DNA of 64,000 nucleotides, taken from contig NZ_CP034447.1 in NCBI RefSeq assembly GCF_003952485.1, positions 124,001 through 188,000 on the forward strand. The letters run 5' to 3'. The position numbers and the translations under genes were made by a program. Under the pieces are notes generated by a model. It had not been told where the DNA came from. It worked only from the letters and a program-made list of their open reading frames with translations, and did not search any database. This DNA is from Mesorhizobium sp. M1E.F.Ca.ET.045.02.1.1. Its GTDB lineage: Bacteria > Pseudomonadota > Alphaproteobacteria > Rhizobiales > Rhizobiaceae. Positions 58,834 to 64,000 of the stretch are shown here, piece after piece (within the stretch, counting starts at the first letter, position 1; each line of letters begins with the position of its first letter).

Positions 58834-59700
58834 CTATCTCGAACCAAATCCGAATCGCTCGTTGAGTCTCGTCCCTCCCAGCGCGGTAAACCGCGCCTCG
58901 ATCTCGGCATTCCAGCAAGCCTCCCACGAAGTTCGCCCGCTGGACAGGGTGAAGGTCTGCTGTCCGATTAGCTGGTTTAAGATCAGCTCAGGCTGCGGCG
59001 GCCGCTCGATCTCGCAAAACTCTACAATTCTGCGAATGGTCTCGAGCTGAACTTCGCGTCCTTGGTCGCCTATGATCTGCTCATAGCTCAATCCAAGAAC
59101 ATTCTCCTGATCCGCCCACGGTGCCACTGGATGGCAGCGATCATTGAAAATGAAAGGCGCGATCTCATCGAAGTACTTCAGCATTTTGTCAGGTCCGTCC
59201 GGCTCATTGCGCCACGTAATCTCAGCCCTCTCAGGCGGGCACCAATCGCTGTCACCTACATATCGCATCTGCGACACAATTGCCGCACGCATTTCGCGCG
59301 AAAGAAAGACGATCTTGAAATCCGCTAAACAATGGCGAGTGCCGATGTCGCACGGTAGATGCCCATAGCCAAACTGACCGGGCTGAATAAAGCGCGAGGA
59401 TATCTCGATCGGTATCCATAGAATATTTTCGGAATGAGTGAAGCGAGCTCGCTCGACATCCACAAAGCGGAAGTCTCCAAGATAGTCTTTATTAAAGAAC
59501 ACATCGGACTGTACAAGCCCGAGCAGTCCAAGCAGACGGGCATATAGGTGGGTGCCCGCCTTCGGAATGGAACATATCATAACCCGCGAGCTTGAGCGGC
59601 CGGCCGTCGGCTTGATTGACCAAGATTCATTCGAGCAGGGATAAAGTGGAAAGGGTTGACCCGCGATATCGCGCAGCTCTTCTGGAAGCGGGTGAAACAT
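58834..59700 (-). CDS. Sulfotransferase-domain protein
   Basis: PAPS-dependent sulfotransferases move sulfate to sugars or other hydroxyls. The 288-residue protein has the 5'-phosphosulfate loop MICSIPKAGTHLYARLLGLL near residue 42 and the 3'-phosphate-binding strand FKIVFLSREMRAAIVSQMRY near residue 127, with a C-terminal SYEQIIGDQGREVQLETIRR region. No signal or membrane helix is seen. It is not close to NodH by eye, and the substrate is unknown. ATG 59700 (MFHPLPEEL) begins the open, undamaged frame. Confidence 0.8.
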   Translation of the reverse strand: MFHPLPEELRDIAGQPFPLYPCSNESWSIKPTAGRSSSRVMICSIPKAGTHLYARLLGLLGLVQSDVFFNKDYLGDFRFVDVERARFTHSENILWIPIEISSRFIQPGQFGYGHLPCDIGTRHCLADFKIVFLSREMRAAIVSQMRYVGDSDWCPPERAEITWRNEPDGPDKMLKYFDEIAPFIFNDRCHPVAPWADQENVLGLSYEQIIGDQGREVQLETIRRIVEFCEIERPPQPELILNQLIGQQTFTLSSGRTSWEACWNAEIEARFTALGGTRLNERFGFGSR

Positions 59701-60401
59701 TGTGGTTTCCTCACTGTTGCAGCGGCTTTTTTAAACAGCCGGAGCCAATGCGCGACAGGACAAGTTCCTGACCAGCTTGACCCCAAGCAGTCGCGCCCTC
59801 TGTTGCCGTACCAGAGAAGTAAAGCCCGTCGCATGCGCTAGCCGCGAGACGAACCGCTAGTACGGGTGGCATCGGCGAGCTCGTGGCCAACTTGCTGAGA
59901 TGAGCTATTTACCAAACGCCACGTCGGCGTTCCCTAGAGATGTAGTCACCTTGTCATACCCCCGTTTTCGATCGGACGATGAACCTAATCATAGAATAAC
60001 GCAAGTAAGATTGGTTATGTCGCCAATATACTAATGAATATATTTTCCCAGACGGCACCGCTTGCGTTGCCGTGCAGTCGTCCCCACTGCCCTGACGACG
60101 AGGACACCACGGTTTGCGCGGCGCATGCGCAGCCAGTAAAGTAAGCTCCATTGACAGCATCGGGCCAGGAGACGTCGTTAAACGAGGCCACTCGCAAGAC
60201 CGCCTCGCGAGCGGCCGAGCGCATGCCCTCGCGTCCATTGCCCCGACTGCCGAGACATGGGCGCGAACGGAGCGGCAGCCGGAATCCGATATCAACCTTG
60301 TCTATGATCTGCGTCAGTGAACCGTCAGCGAGACTCGAATATGCAGGGCTTTGCTAGGCCTTCGCGGGTCGACTGCCAGCTTGGAACGAACACTAAGACA
60401 C
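59701..60401. other. Divergent intergenic region
   Basis: AT-rich around 59990-60050, probably holding promoters for the sulfotransferase gene and the RpiR gene. ATTGG-N8-CCAAT at 60010-60027 is a symmetric site of LysR-type spacing. No tts box or nod box is evident. Confidence 0.4.
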
Positions 60402-61217
60402 ATGCGGAAGCCCCGACATACACAGAAATTGCTGCTAGACATCATCTATGATGCAATTAACACGGCTCCGAATGCGCTCGCACGTATAGCTCTGTATGTT
60501 GCACAAGACCCCGAGGCTGTTCTGGCGCTGTCCATTGCCGACCTTGCGCGCAACACCGCTACCGGTTCTGCTTCAATTGTAAGATTTTGCCGAACCTTGG
60601 GACTCTCGGGATTTCGCGAGTTTAAGATTGCGCTCAGCGGCGAAATTGAGCGGCGGAAGTTGAGCGGCGAACTGGCTGAACGCGCGCCATCAGAAGCTGT
60701 AGACACAGCTCCTCGGATCGCCATCCTCAGTTCTGCTTTACAAAACTCAATTTCCGCGTCCGCTCGTGGTTTTGACGACCTTCAAATTAGTGGGCTTGCC
60801 AACCGCATCCGAGCGGCCCGACGCGTCGAACTGTTCGGCACGGGGCCGTCATCCGTCTGCGCTGATATTCTGGCCATGCGACTGATCTGCCTAGGTTTCC
60901 CCGCACATTGCTCGGGGTCCGCCACCGTGTCTCACGCTCTCGCGCGAGGGCTTGGCTCGTTGAGCCTCGCCATTGGCATTTCGTCGCGTGGCCACACTGT
61001 GGAAACCAAGGATTTTCTGGCCATTGCGCGCGAAACCGGAGCATACACGATTGCCATTACGACCCGCGTTGACTGCCCGATCGCCCGGACTGCGGACGAG
61101 GTGGTCTTGTTTACCTCGGCTGAGGCTTGGCCACAGGCCGGGTCGGCGATGCACGTGCCGCCTCTGGTGTTGCTGAGCGAATATCTTTGCCAGTGTCTGC
61201 AGATGGCGGAAGTCTGA
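60402..61217 (+). CDS. RpiR-family transcriptional regulator (HTH plus SIS domain)
   Basis: The 271-residue protein has an N-terminal HTH_6 domain (ARIALYVAQDPEAVLALSIA, GSASIVRFCRTLGLSGFREF). A C-terminal SIS sugar-phosphate-binding domain follows (RRVELFGTGPSSVCADILAM, LAIGISSRGHTVETKDFLAI, GAYTIAITTRVDCPIART). Such proteins sense phosphosugars or inositol derivatives. ATG 60402 is preferred; the frame is open from 60351. Its target is unknown; the nearest genes are the divergent sulfotransferase and the convergent operon to its right. Confidence 0.9.
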   Translation: MRKPRHTQKLLLDIIYDAINTAPNALARIALYVAQDPEAVLALSIADLARNTATGSASIVRFCRTLGLSGFREFKIALSGEIERRKLSGELAERAPSEAVDTAPRIAILSSALQNSISASARGFDDLQISGLANRIRAARRVELFGTGPSSVCADILAMRLICLGFPAHCSGSATVSHALARGLGSLSLAIGISSRGHTVETKDFLAIARETGAYTIAITTRVDCPIARTADEVVLFTSAEAWPQAGSAMHVPPLVLLSEYLCQCLQMAEV

Positions 61218-61794: not shown

Positions 61795-62334
61795 CTATCG
61801 GGTGCTGCCACGAAGGTTGGTATTGACGTATTTCGCGAGGTCTAGCGCGGAGATGCTACCAACCAATTGGTCCAGACTCATTTCGGCCGAGATTGAGGCG
61901 GAATGCTCCAGGAGTGCAAGGAGATCATCCCTGTGCTTCGAATGGTGGTTCTCCAGGTGCATCTCGACCTTTCGCGCGATGACGTCCGCGAAACTCGCCC
62001 TTGTCCCAAAAAGCGGATCGTTGATTAACGCCGTCGGTCGTTCCTGTTCGAGAACCCAATTTATCGCCAGGGTCCCGTTCGATCTCAAGAATACGATCTC
62101 CAGCTCCGCGTCGGCAGGTCGCGATGTGGCAATGGAGAACCCCGCATCCGCCAGAGCCCTGGTATCCTTATCCACAGCCTGAGTGAATGCGGCCAAATTG
62201 ACATGATGAATGTCAATGTCGTTCGGCGCACGCTGGATGAACTGAGAAAGGACGCTACTGCCCGCTACCCAGCTATCTTTGCTCCGATTGCGCGAAATGG
62301 CGACTAACGCAATGCGCATCAGCTCGGGCATCAT
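61795..62334 (-). CDS. Nucleotidyltransferase-like protein
   Basis: The 179-residue protein has the nucleotidyltransferase hallmark GSSVLSQFIQ then NDIDIHHV (G-S at about 25-27 and D-x-D at 39-41), followed by residues compatible with a third carboxylate in LEIVFLRSNGTLAINW. The C-terminal helical part (ARKVEMHLENHHSKHRDDLL) resembles AbiEii/MNT-type proteins. It is the last gene of a leftward operon; its start overlaps the methyltransferase stop by 4 nt. The nucleotide-acceptor substrate is unknown. Confidence 0.7.
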   Translation of the reverse strand: MMPELMRIALVAISRNRSKDSWVAGSSVLSQFIQRAPNDIDIHHVNLAAFTQAVDKDTRALADAGFSIATSRPADAELEIVFLRSNGTLAINWVLEQERPTALINDPLFGTRASFADVIARKVEMHLENHHSKHRDDLLALLEHSASISAEMSLDQLVGSISALDLAKYVNTNLRGSTR

Positions 62335-63011
62335 GCGCTTGTGGCCTTCTTTGATATTGAGAACAGCCTGTAAGTTACGTTGACGTCGGGATAGGTCCCG
62401 GCTCGCAGAAGCACAGATGTGAGATCATTTGAACCCGCAATCTTTTCAAGAAGGTCGTCACGGGCATTAGTGCCGAACCCAAGAACGATACGACCTGTTT
62501 CCGTAAGGAATCTTGGGCCATCTGAAAGAAATCTCTCGAGCAAGTTGTACCCTGGATCGATCGCACCACCTTCGAGGTCGTGGACAAACTCGTAATCTTC
62601 TGGAGCGTAGCTCGACGGGTAGTTCCAAAATATGATGTCGAACCTTCTGCCAGGTGGAACATTGGTAAATATATCGCTTGCGATGACTTCGACGTTCCTA
62701 ATGCCGTTTCTTGCAGCATTCTCCAACGTGTTCTTGACGGCCCTCGGATTGATGTCGCAAGTCAGCAACGACAGCGCGCCAGTCTTTGCCAACAGAAGGC
62801 CGGGAAGACCGAAACCGCAGCCGATTTCTAAGACGGTCTTTCCGTCGAATGGGGGAAAATTCTCGCTAATCCAACGCCAACTCTGGAAGTGCTCTGGAGG
62901 AAAAACCCCTTCCTGTACGACCAGATCCAGTCCGAATGCCTGCATCTGACGCGGGAAAGTGGCTTGTTGACTTGTCCGAAGCGTTGTCCTGATACGATCA
63001 AGTTCGCTCAT
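62331..63011 (-). CDS. SAM-dependent methyltransferase, HemK/PrmC-like
   Basis: The 226-residue protein is a class I methyltransferase. Motif I is TVLEIGCGFGLPGLLLAK (about 59-76), an acidic motif II follows in LLTCDINPRAV, and motif IV is FDIIFWNYPSSYAPEDYEF. The NYPS tetrapeptide resembles the NPPY motif of N-methyltransferases acting on glutamine or bases. No membrane segment is present. Both ends overlap neighbours by 4 nt. The substrate cannot be deduced. Confidence 0.85.
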   Translation of the reverse strand: MSELDRIRTTLRTSQQATFPRQMQAFGLDLVVQEGVFPPEHFQSWRWISENFPPFDGKTVLEIGCGFGLPGLLLAKTGALSLLTCDINPRAVKNTLENAARNGIRNVEVIASDIFTNVPPGRRFDIIFWNYPSSYAPEDYEFVHDLEGGAIDPGYNLLERFLSDGPRFLTETGRIVLGFGTNARDDLLEKIAGSNDLTSVLLRAGTYPDVNVTYRLFSISKKATSA

Positions 63012-63838
63012 TGTTCTCCGGCCTTCCGGCGCGGTGCCATGCCTGGTTGTTTTCCCGGCTCGACGGCATCAACGGTTCGCTTCAGTAAGCAATTCCAAAG
63101 AGGCATTGAAAACAGACCGGCCTCAAGAATGAGGCGGTCCCAAGATGAGCGGAGGGGTGCATACCGGAAGAGGCCTTCTAGACCGGCTCGATCCCCCTGG
63201 AAATACCGCTGGACGGCTGTCGTTAGGCCCGACTTTGCTGCGGTTAGGAGTGCTCTGTCGTAACAGAATCTTGCGTGGGCAAAGGCGCTACCATCACTCC
63301 GATTGTCCGGCATCGGCGCAGCTCCCCTGTCGCCGAGAACGTTTAGCAACATTTGGAAAGATGAATGGGCAATGTAGCCGGAATCGAGAGAAATCCAAGC
63401 AGTCGCTTCGTCGCCCAACGACCGGCACCTAAGTATTCTCAGCTCAGCATCCATTACTTGATGACTATCGCTCACATGAAGGAGGTTCGTCACGGGATTA
63501 TCGCAGAAAAAGAGACTACGTACGGTGCCGCATAAAGCCTGGGCCGGCTGTGTGTTACCCTTCAGTTTTTGCGACAAGTGCAGCGCATTAGGTCCGCTCC
63601 AGATCGTGGCGCAAACCGGACGCATGTCGAATAAGTCCAGCACCAATGGCCAATGCTTCCCGCCGGTGGAACAGGTAAGGGTATAAAACGCATCAATGGA
63701 TTTGCGACTATGAATCGAAAAGAACCGTTCCGAGAGTTCCAAACCGGTTCGCCGGCGAATAAATTCGTCGAGCAGCGAGGTTAGGCCAGAGCGCGCGACT
63801 TCCGGGCCATACACTATCAGCGCCGTGGATGACATCAT
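63008..63838 (-). CDS. NDP-kinase-like protein with extra C-terminal domain
   Basis: Residues about 4-140 follow the nucleoside-diphosphate-kinase pattern: ALIVYGPEVARSGLTSLLDE, LSQKLKGNTQPAQALCGTVR and NLLHVSDSHQVMDAELRIL. The last places His 121 at the active-site phosphohistidine position. The usual N-terminal KPD lysine is not conserved. About 135 further residues (ARFCYDRALLTAAKSGLTTA, RAGLEGLFRYAPLRSSWDRL) have no recognised fold. The length is nearly twice a normal NDK (about 140), so this is a specialised enzyme, not housekeeping Ndk. It is coupled by 4-nt overlaps on both sides. Confidence 0.65.
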   Translation of the reverse strand: MMSSTALIVYGPEVARSGLTSLLDEFIRRRTGLELSERFFSIHSRKSIDAFYTLTCSTGGKHWPLVLDLFDMRPVCATIWSGPNALHLSQKLKGNTQPAQALCGTVRSLFFCDNPVTNLLHVSDSHQVMDAELRILRCRSLGDEATAWISLDSGYIAHSSFQMLLNVLGDRGAAPMPDNRSDGSAFAHARFCYDRALLTAAKSGLTTAVQRYFQGDRAGLEGLFRYAPLRSSWDRLILEAGLFSMPLWNCLLKRTVDAVEPGKQPGMAPRRKAGEQ

Positions 63839-64000
63839 GCCGCCCCCCCCAAAGGGTCGCTTGTGATATGGGCCTTCCTGCTCGCGACGGTGATCCTAGT
63901 CGCTCTAACGCGTCTCCCTTCCAGCCAATCGGCGAGACGAGCGGGATGACGGGCATTAATCACAACGCCGGGAAGGCTTTTCTTCGCCATGAATTCGACC
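63835..64000 (-). CDS. C-terminal end of an upstream operon gene, possibly an amino-acid-kinase family protein
   Basis: The frame enters from beyond the window and reads SLPGVVINARHPARLADWLE then RRVRATRITV, stopping in the ATGA overlap with the next gene. The pattern of a hydrophobic strand, N-x-(R/G)-x-P, and a leucine-rich turn is like the last strand of amino-acid-kinase-fold enzymes, but too little is visible to be sure. An internal ATG at 63990 could also start a 51-residue peptide. Confidence 0.4.
   Translation of the reverse strand, partial: VEFMAKKSLPGVVINARHPARLADWLEGRRVRATRITVASRKAHITSDPLGGAA

Follow-up and report, generated by a model that had tools for sequence, protein, structure and literature searches.

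A five-gene aminotransferase, kinase, NDK-like, methyltransferase and nucleotidyltransferase operon of Mesorhizobium and its possible role in making a reclaimable phosphodiester-linked amino metabolite

The end of the window (the 64,000-nucleotide stretch of Mesorhizobium DNA that was analysed) carries a minus-strand operon composed, in order, of DegT, AAK (an AAK-family kinase), an NDK-like gene, a class I methyltransferase (MT) and a nucleotidyltransferase (NTase); the first of these, for a DegT aminotransferase, is located 18 bp upstream of AAK, past the window edge (Table 1). The initial annotation had described the last four as a coupled operon with 4-nt ATGA overlaps and intact frames, which is confirmed: the overlap is found at 3/3 junctions of AAK/NDK-like/MT/NTase, all frames are intact (that of AAK over its full length beyond the window), and the same three overlaps recur in 8 near-identical Mesorhizobium loci. 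The upstream gene, followed past the window edge, is a kinase of the AAK family, the four family assignments hold, and the gene order is kept in other rhizobia. Among other relatives the AAK-NDK spacing ranges from -19 to +28 (excluding the broken N. galegae locus), and in Sinorhizobium sp. 8-89 AAK and NDK form one 514-aa ORF. In a single comparison, with M. neociceri, dN/dS was 0.23 for AAK, 0.20 for NDK, 0.26 for MT, 0.33 for NTase and 0.15 for DegT (final 17 codons of DegT omitted). The operon is real.

Table 1. Features of the operon and its flank (positions in the window)
Feature	Position	Strand	Remarks
AAK-family kinase, 3' part	63835..64000, continues past window end	-	complete 251 aa at L002:7835-8590; Pfam AA_kinase
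NDK-like phosphotransferase	63008..63838	-	276 aa; NDK fold, His121 kept, Lys position = Gly11, extra C-terminal domain
Class I SAM-dependent methyltransferase	62331..63011	-	226 aa; VLEIGCGFG motif, NYPS
Pol-beta-fold NTase	61795..62334	-	179 aa; GS..DxD motif, predicted structure
MurR/RpiR (SIS) regulator	60351..61217	+	convergent with operon; homologues adjoin operon in several relatives
Sulfotransferase, tentative class A tailoring enzyme	58834..59700	-	Pfam Sulfotransfer_1 E=1.3e-6

AAK matches Pfam AA_kinase with E=7e-23 (82 bits versus a gathering score of 24.9). Its nearest NCBIfam model is MfnE, [5-(aminomethyl)furan-3-yl]methyl phosphate kinase, at 99.6 bits, which does not reach the 300-bit cut-off; with the bacterial PyrH model it reaches 16.5 bits, where the cut-off is 243.9. 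As AAK is nearest to MfnE and yet falls so far short of its cut-off, a phosphate rather than an alcohol as substrate is a guess. The NDK-like protein matches Pfam NDK over residues 13-135 (E=2.1e-11), and its AlphaFold2 model (pLDDT 83.5, good in the best of five models only) retrieved with Foldseek 50 listed matches that were all NDK-family entries. The initial annotation had noted a retained active-site histidine, a lost lysine and an added domain, and the alignment bears this out: the phospho-accepting His121 (NxxH.SDS) is invariant in 27 aligned sequences (2 of the 28 protein matches dropped, P0001 as near-identical and P0028 as a fragment), the position of the catalytic Lys of the KPD motif is a nearly invariant glycine (Gly11, in GPEV), and an extra C-terminal domain of ~135 residues spans residues ~142-276. 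The missing lysine is the reason why the protein is named NDK-like rather than classed as an NDK, and could mean weak or different catalysis.

NPPY-type methyltransferases carry NPPY where the MT reads NYPS, and in Sinorhizobium an MT-homologous domain is fused to a class III aminotransferase. Neither Pfam nor NCBIfam yields a match for the NTase; its predicted structure (pLDDT 89) matches pol-beta-type NTases and lies close to ANT(2'')-Ia, LnuA and MenT proteins in structure comparison. Its metal-binding motif GS..DxD (G25, S26, D39, D41) is invariant in 19 sequences, and the nearly invariant E77 may be a third carboxylate. The structural neighbour ANT(2'')-Ia adenylylates tobramycin. The NTase is 10-13% identical to it and to H. 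pylori JHP933, and its genetic setting is unlike theirs. A fusion of the NTase with hypX was also found. The DegT protein belongs to the DegT family, whose solved relatives include 2-deoxy-scyllo-inosose aminotransferases; it is not operon-specific, being present in 64 plasmid records, and the five inspected show ROK-DegT with HAD (5/5) and GNAT (4/5). The sulfotransferase has four close plasmid matches (79-81%), all on core-bearing plasmids, with the gene fragmented in two.

The NDK-like core is present in 4/394 genomes of the strain's own family. AAK precedes NDK, with NTase present, in 23 of 24 loci collected (L033-L055), the 24th (L056) being a plain NDK, and DegT adjoins the core in 20 of the 23; the 8 Mesorhizobium loci count as one lineage, as do the two of R. 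mesoamericanum/altiplani. As an accessory element the core is rare, chiefly rhizobial and several times close to nif genes: genome G000 has nifH at 6 and 471 kb and the operon at 186-190 kb, sigma-54 and sigma-54-activator (NifA-like) genes follow the R. mesoamericanum cluster, and nifN lies ~12 kb from that of N. galegae. Housekeeping-NDK loci (L004-L032) were dropped as a neighbourhood control, each being only ~3.3 kb. No description of the operon's gene set was found in the open-access papers of PMC. An Acinetobacter plasmid bears a core relative amid AMP-binding, acyl-carrier, transketolase-like, ATP-grasp-type ligase, glycosyltransferase and thymidylate-kinase-like genes. A candidate NDK-NTase fusion in Acinetobacter has a GS..NDLD motif, and its domain ranked first against 200 shuffles, with a weak score of 4.3 bits and an hhalign match of 28 columns (probability 7.6%); this is suggestive only.

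In the same genome, ~6-17 kb upstream of DegT, lies a locus in the order sulfatase-MurR-ABC-PDE-HAD-PDE-HAD, which codes for a Ugp-like ABC importer, a GpdQ-like phosphodiesterase (PDE), HAD phosphatases and a MurR/RpiR regulator. Among solved structures, the binding protein is nearest UgpB and the PDE nearest phosphohydrolases of the GpdQ type. The PDE occurs in 4/4 genomes with the NDK-like gene and in 8/394 overall, i.e. 4/390 without it (Fisher p=7e-8), and in 3/4 of the former both genes are on one contig within ~12 kb. On plasmids, the PDE family was found in at least 9/11 rhizobial or Roseibium NDK-bearing records and in 46 of 72,556 records altogether (E<=1e-30); none from S. numidicum was among the matches listed (40 of the 46 records). 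The family is also found without the core, as in Phyllobacterium zundukense, where the uptake operon is present and the plasmid search gave no NDK match, and relatives at 43-48% identity exist elsewhere, one at 2.66 Mb of the strain's own genome. The PDE is absent from the fetched flanks of 8/23 loci (those of R. mesoamericanum/altiplani, M. prunaredense/ventifaucium, S. meliloti 4H41, SHOUNA12A, KBS0706 and L037, the last with a short upstream flank), no HAD gene was found beside it in S. 8-89, LCM 4579, S. garamanticum, NORP147 or Roseibium, and no MFS gene was seen in 5/8 loci tested.

Which importer type is present goes with the operon's tailoring genes and not with core ancestry. S. americanum, with a similar tailoring set, shares 58% identity with the Mesorhizobium strain in NDK and 83% in the binding protein; R. 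leguminosarum CB782 and the Sinorhizobium type share 52-55% and 88-90%, respectively, and Roseibium and NORP147 48% and 77%. Mantel correlations were 0.89 for NDK-AAK, 0.90 for NDK-NTase, 0.70 for NDK-PDE, 0.60 for NDK-binding protein and 0.96 for PDE-binding protein. The comparison covers 13 strains, 8 core lineages after collapsing by our own reckoning, and leaves aside near-copies, loci without a reachable partner, the broken loci of N. galegae, S. numidicum and T1470, and R. mongolense for its closeness to R. 007; R. sp. 007 was assigned type A despite its MT being reduced to a remnant. For the 8 lineages, hand arithmetic gives a chance of 1 in 420 that the match would arise from a random partition of equal shape. 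Tailoring and transport genes, being linked, could have travelled as one block.

From gene content, folds, conservation, co-occurrence and chemotype matching, which were seen directly, we infer reactions, product and nodule role: the operon would make a phosphodiester-linked amino metabolite that the neighbouring locus reclaims, a reading to which we give a probability of about 0.4. Its likely meaning follows from DegT, the importer/phosphodiesterase/phosphatase locus, the chemotype matching and the fusions, all of them outside what the initial annotation had in view. The best explanation of AAK, the NDK-like protein and the NTase would be the chemistry of UMP kinase, NDP kinase and nucleotidyltransferase repeated on a non-nucleotide. 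The fold order is identical (monophosphate kinase, with PyrH of the AAK fold, then diphosphate kinase, then pol-beta NTase), although AAK falls far below the PyrH cut-off and likewise below that of MfnE, its top model, the NDK-like protein has the altered active site and added domain described above, and the NTase fits no curated family. In such a pathway, DegT would aminate a keto-sugar or keto-cyclitol, AAK would convert X-phosphate to X-diphosphate in the manner of UMP kinase or MfnE, and the NDK-like enzyme would form X-triphosphate via phospho-His121. The NTase might then take X-PPP as an NTP analogue and transfer X-P to a second alcohol, Y, giving X-P-Y and pyrophosphate; we know of no direct precedent for an NTase running on a non-nucleotide triphosphate. 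Tailoring by the MT and, depending on the chemotype, a sulfotransferase, GMC oxidoreductase or class III aminotransferase would be followed by release through an MFS or EamA exporter (genes present in some loci). After re-uptake by the Ugp-like importer, the GpdQ-like phosphodiesterase would cut X-P-Y, and the HAD phosphatases (and sulfatase) would finish the breakdown, presumably under MurR/RpiR control.

The initial annotation had suggested a modified nucleotide or a phosphorylated small molecule as product. The latter fits; the former is less likely, because the NDK-like protein has lost its catalytic lysine and the linked uptake operon is not of the nucleotide-salvage type, resembling instead glycerophosphodiester or sugar-phosphate import. 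A nucleotide could still be part of the product if the NTase moved an NMP from an ordinary NTP (as used by ANT(2'')-Ia and LnuA, whose fold it matches) to a phosphorylated or methylated amino-sugar, AAK and the NDK-like protein only preparing the acceptor of an antibiotic or signal that the phosphodiesterase reclaims or detoxifies. The antibiotic-type surroundings of the Acinetobacter relative speak for such a conjugate, which we consider unlikely since it leaves the NDK-like gene beside AAK, and once fused to it, unexplained, and the uptake locus is Ugp-like rather than nucleoside-type.

The two loci may also be functionally unlinked, one scavenging glycerophosphodiesters from the plant and the other making a surface or Nod-factor-like decoration, and co-occur because symbiotic plasmids carry both. 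Ugp/GpdQ relatives are common enough for this, with 46 records, and P. zundukense has the uptake operon alone, but the PDE distribution (4/4 versus 4/390 genomes) and the match of importer to tailoring type across unrelated cores make it quite improbable. A role of the operon in phage defence or as a toxin-antitoxin module, with the NTase as a MenT/AbiEii-like effector, is very improbable. The NTase is structurally similar to MenT proteins and one relative bears an AbiEii name, but the five enzymes are metabolic, have aminotransferase and oxidoreductase partners and are linked to sugar-phosphate-type uptake, and no antitoxin-like gene was seen in the operon.

The proposed making and reclaiming of a metabolite resembles two known systems, in function and not in family membership. 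In S. meliloti L5-30, mos/moc pairs rhizopine synthesis (MosB aminotransferase, MosC transporter) with catabolism, so that here too rhizobial accessory loci make and consume an aminated compound, although AAK, NDK, NTase and phosphodiesterase are not named among the mos genes in the part of that description consulted (PMC6668481). Rhizopine catabolism is described in non-rhizobia too (PMC10591227). The Agrobacterium acc system for agrocinopine has, like the partner locus, an ABC importer, a phosphodiesterase (AccF), a phosphatase (AccG) and a regulator, which in acc senses the released sugar-phosphate (PMC4526662). The importer of the partner locus, however, is UgpB-like and its phosphodiesterase GpdQ-like (metallophos), and the maker is a multi-enzyme operon of the same bacterium. 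To our knowledge, the Acc proteins belong to other families.

In root nodules, rhizopines are a textbook case of a private or public good, and we know of few chemical kinds that have been described. A doubtful extension of the pathway is that it represents a new rhizobial opine class, an aminated phosphodiester from the non-nucleotide relay. It would come in three or more chemotypes, each with a matched importer and phosphodiesterase of its own, by which kin would reclaim what producers release. If so, symbiotic plasmids would hold a further, chemically varied class beside rhizopines, recognisable from the AAK, NDK-like and NTase signature and its matched importer; kin-selection and cheater ideas could be tested with defined genes, apparent consumer-only strains included, and biochemistry would gain an NTase relay on a non-nucleotide triphosphate.

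A phosphonate pathway was rejected: a PepM-like neighbour is restricted to some Rhizobium loci (L043, L057, L065, L066, L069 and L072), the first four of which have D/E-G-K/R/N instead of the EDK motif that marks PEP mutase (PepM), and no such match was found within the strain's own 40 kb. No operator common to the making and reclaiming operons emerged from 18 upstream regions. All 10 exact TGGCACG-N4-TTGCW sites of the strain's genome lie away from the operon, and no exact sigma-54/NifA-type site was found up to 900 bp from DegT or AAK, in this or any Mesorhizobium locus, which speaks against NifA-type control as a general feature for Mesorhizobium. Only S. garamanticum and S. numidicum have such an exact site, with TGT-N10-ACA upstream of it, before DegT; in S. 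sp. 8-89 a sigma-54/NifA-type site matching at 11 of 12 positions precedes the gene.

The operon, which the initial annotation had read as four coupled genes, is composed of five genes on the minus strand; the window end falls within it, and onward reading of the same contig (L002) supplies the rest of the AAK kinase gene. It is headed by a gene for a DegT aminotransferase (445 aa), with an 18 bp gap to the next gene, and the genes for the AAK kinase, the NDK-like protein, the methyltransferase (MT) and the nucleotidyltransferase (NTase) are coupled by three exact 4-nt overlaps. A codon comparison with M. neociceri gave dN/dS values of 0.15-0.33 across the five genes, showing that they are maintained.

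Coordinates of the features discussed (L-numbers are handles for fetched DNA stretches; window position = L002 position + 56000)
Feature	Position	Remarks
AAK kinase	L002:7835-8590	complete, 251 aa
IS66-type copy	L002:13189-15504	same orientation as the L064 copy
IS66-type copy	L064:17664-19979	
Genes upstream of the sulfatase	L064:6679-14559	second sugar ABC importer, SIS-domain-like protein, kinase-like gene, MurR, oxidase-like ORF; several names assigned by eye
Stretch of the T136 plasmid	L077:1-1698	importer locus adjoins an NRPS/PKS gene of ~20.7 kb
DegT N-terminus, S. garamanticum	L060:9480-10240	in a different frame from the remainder; preceded by an exact NifA-type promoter site

With 28 protein clusters the NDK-like family is a rare one, and its gene was found in 4/394 genomes of the same family as this strain and, among 398 genomes drawn across the phylum, in this one only. 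A search of genome contigs detected 24 loci, 23 of them true relatives, all of which have AAK ahead of NDK together with an NTase, while DegT is adjacent in 20. In 13 loci MT stands by itself, in five it is the leading domain of a class III aminotransferase, and in the other five none was found; this join was checked with Pfam in the plasmid relative S. garamanticum, the first domains were compared across the fused forms, and the joined gene is broken in M. prunaredense/ventifaucium. In R. sp. 007, T136 and S. americanum the intact DegT is located away from the core, in a ROK-DegT module of the same plasmid. Roseibium and NORP147 also carry core loci, which shows that the element extends beyond nodule bacteria. 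A contig labelled Mycobacterium sp. KBS0706 (a label that looks doubtful) has Fe-ADH_2 and NagB-like genes preceding DegT-AAK-NDK-NTase, then an IucA/IucC synthetase. ROK-DegT-HAD(-GNAT)-GntR-type modules occur on rhizobial plasmids (loci L081-L085, DegT being present in 64 plasmid records), several of them close to an ABC importer accompanied by an inositol-dehydrogenase-like gene.

AAK is a Pfam AA_kinase member whose nearest curated model is MfnE, a phosphate kinase, although it scores well under that model's cut-off. The NDK-like protein has an NDK fold according to Pfam, AlphaFold2 (one of five models good) and Foldseek, plus an additional helical domain of ~135 residues; in an alignment of 27 sequences His121, Asn118, Arg107, Glu132 and Trp63 are invariant and Gly occupies the position of the catalytic Lys, all of these being positions with a role in NDKs. 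MT belongs to class I and has an intact SAM motif, with NYPS at the site of NPPY, the motif of N-methyltransferases. NTase had no family match in profile searches; its confidently predicted structure, a pol-beta NTase fold, most resembles H. pylori NTase/JHP933, MenT proteins, ANT(2'')-Ia and LnuA, and its GS..DxD motif is invariant in aligned relatives.

Several of these proteins are fused in relatives: AAK and NDK form a single 514-aa ORF with no internal stop in Sinorhizobium sp. 8-89, NTase continues into hypX in N. lilium, and MT is fused to an aminotransferase in the Sinorhizobium type. Such fusions argue that the core enzymes would act in sequence. AAK, NDK-like protein and NTase have the same fold order as UMP kinase, NDP kinase and nucleotidyltransferase, and in the simplest reading of the pathway, all of whose reactions we infer, AAK and then the NDK-like enzyme would convert X-P to X-PP and X-PPP, and NTase would move X-P onto an alcohol, giving a phosphodiester. 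Reuse of such a product would need an importer, a phosphodiesterase and a phosphatase. The catabolic logic would resemble that of agrocinopine (PMC4526662), and the ecology that of rhizopine (PMC6668481, PMC10591227). Inosose-acting DegT relatives, MurR/RpiR regulators and an inositol-dehydrogenase-like gene (scoring below that model's cut-off) that adjoins a related ROK-DegT module point to an aminocyclitol or amino-sugar. In S. meliloti, inositol catabolism is reportedly under an RpiR-like repressor.

Genes of this kind lie past the window, ~6-17 kb upstream of DegT and on the same strand: sulfatase, MurR, an ABC importer (ATPase, two permeases and UgpB-like binding protein), GpdQ-like phosphodiesterase (PDE), HAD, PDE and HAD. 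PDE genes are inside the fetched flanks of 15/23 core loci (many of these loci being near-copies), on 9/11 rhizobial/Roseibium core-bearing plasmid records versus 46/72,556 records overall and, in the genome survey, in 4/4 core-bearing genomes versus 4/390 others. In the plasmid search, nodule isolates of Phyllobacterium zundukense had importer-PDE-HAD genes but no core match, as a consumer-only strain would. The IS66-type copies are identical at 2315/2316 bases, share an identical 510-aa ORF and lie on either side of the importer, phosphodiesterase and sulfatase genes, an arrangement that would fit a composite transposon; the genes upstream of the sulfatase possibly encode further catabolic steps.

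Three tailoring architectures were distinguished. Type A (this strain, M. neociceri, T136, S. americanum and R. 007, the last with only an MT remnant) has a stand-alone MT without GMC or class III aminotransferase; type B (S. 8-89, LCM 4579, S. garamanticum, R. leguminosarum CB782) has the MT-aminotransferase fusion, hypX, a GMC oxidoreductase and GNAT; type C (Roseibium, NORP147) has an aminotransferase without MT, hypX, GMC and MFS. Binding proteins are 81-94% identical inside A, 88-94% inside B and 77% inside C, versus 37-54% between types, whereas core NDK relatedness does not track the types: S. americanum (58%) and Roseibium (59%) are equally distant from our NDK, Roseibium and NORP147 share only 48%, and CB782 shares 52-55% with type B despite a binding-protein identity of 88-90%. 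Both N. lilium and AFS068226 have an architecture not shared with the others and an importer of their own, 41-45% and 38-53% identical to the rest, respectively. Tailoring genes and importer therefore vary in step as the core diverges. Physical linkage could contribute to this match, although the making and reclaiming loci of type A are ~1 kb (S. americanum) to ~25 kb (T136) apart. PDE has a HAD neighbour in type A, in CB782, in N. lilium and in AFS068226, but none was found in the flanks of five strains of types B and C. Type A may be marked by sulfation: the four plasmids with close sulfotransferase matches are all core-bearing, and close sulfatase matches come from R. 007 (two plasmids), T136 and P. 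zundukense, S. americanum being absent from both sets.

A plasmid of Acinetobacter sp. SAAs474 encodes a DegT 47% identical to that of R. 007, an AAK 42% identical to that of Roseibium and an NDK-like protein with 33% identity over 134 residues to ours, whose extra C-terminal stretch has an NTase-like motif, a putative NDK-NTase fusion that is not statistically firm. Its neighbours (AMP-ligase, ACP, transketolase-like halves, D-Ala-D-Ala-ligase-like enzymes, glycosyltransferase and thymidylate-kinase-like protein) look biosynthetic, pointing to the core as a specialised-metabolism module.

On our contig nifH is found at 6 kb and 471 kb and the operon at 186-190 kb, and in R. mesoamericanum genes for sigma-54 and a NifA-like sigma-54 activator come after the cluster. 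S. garamanticum and S. numidicum alone have exact NifA-type sites before DegT. At the loci of R. tropici CIAT 899 and CB3171 NDK, MT and NTase had no match; a retained AAK, accompanied in CIAT 899 by a DegT remnant, adjoins a PepM-like gene and rpoN-nifQ-nifS.
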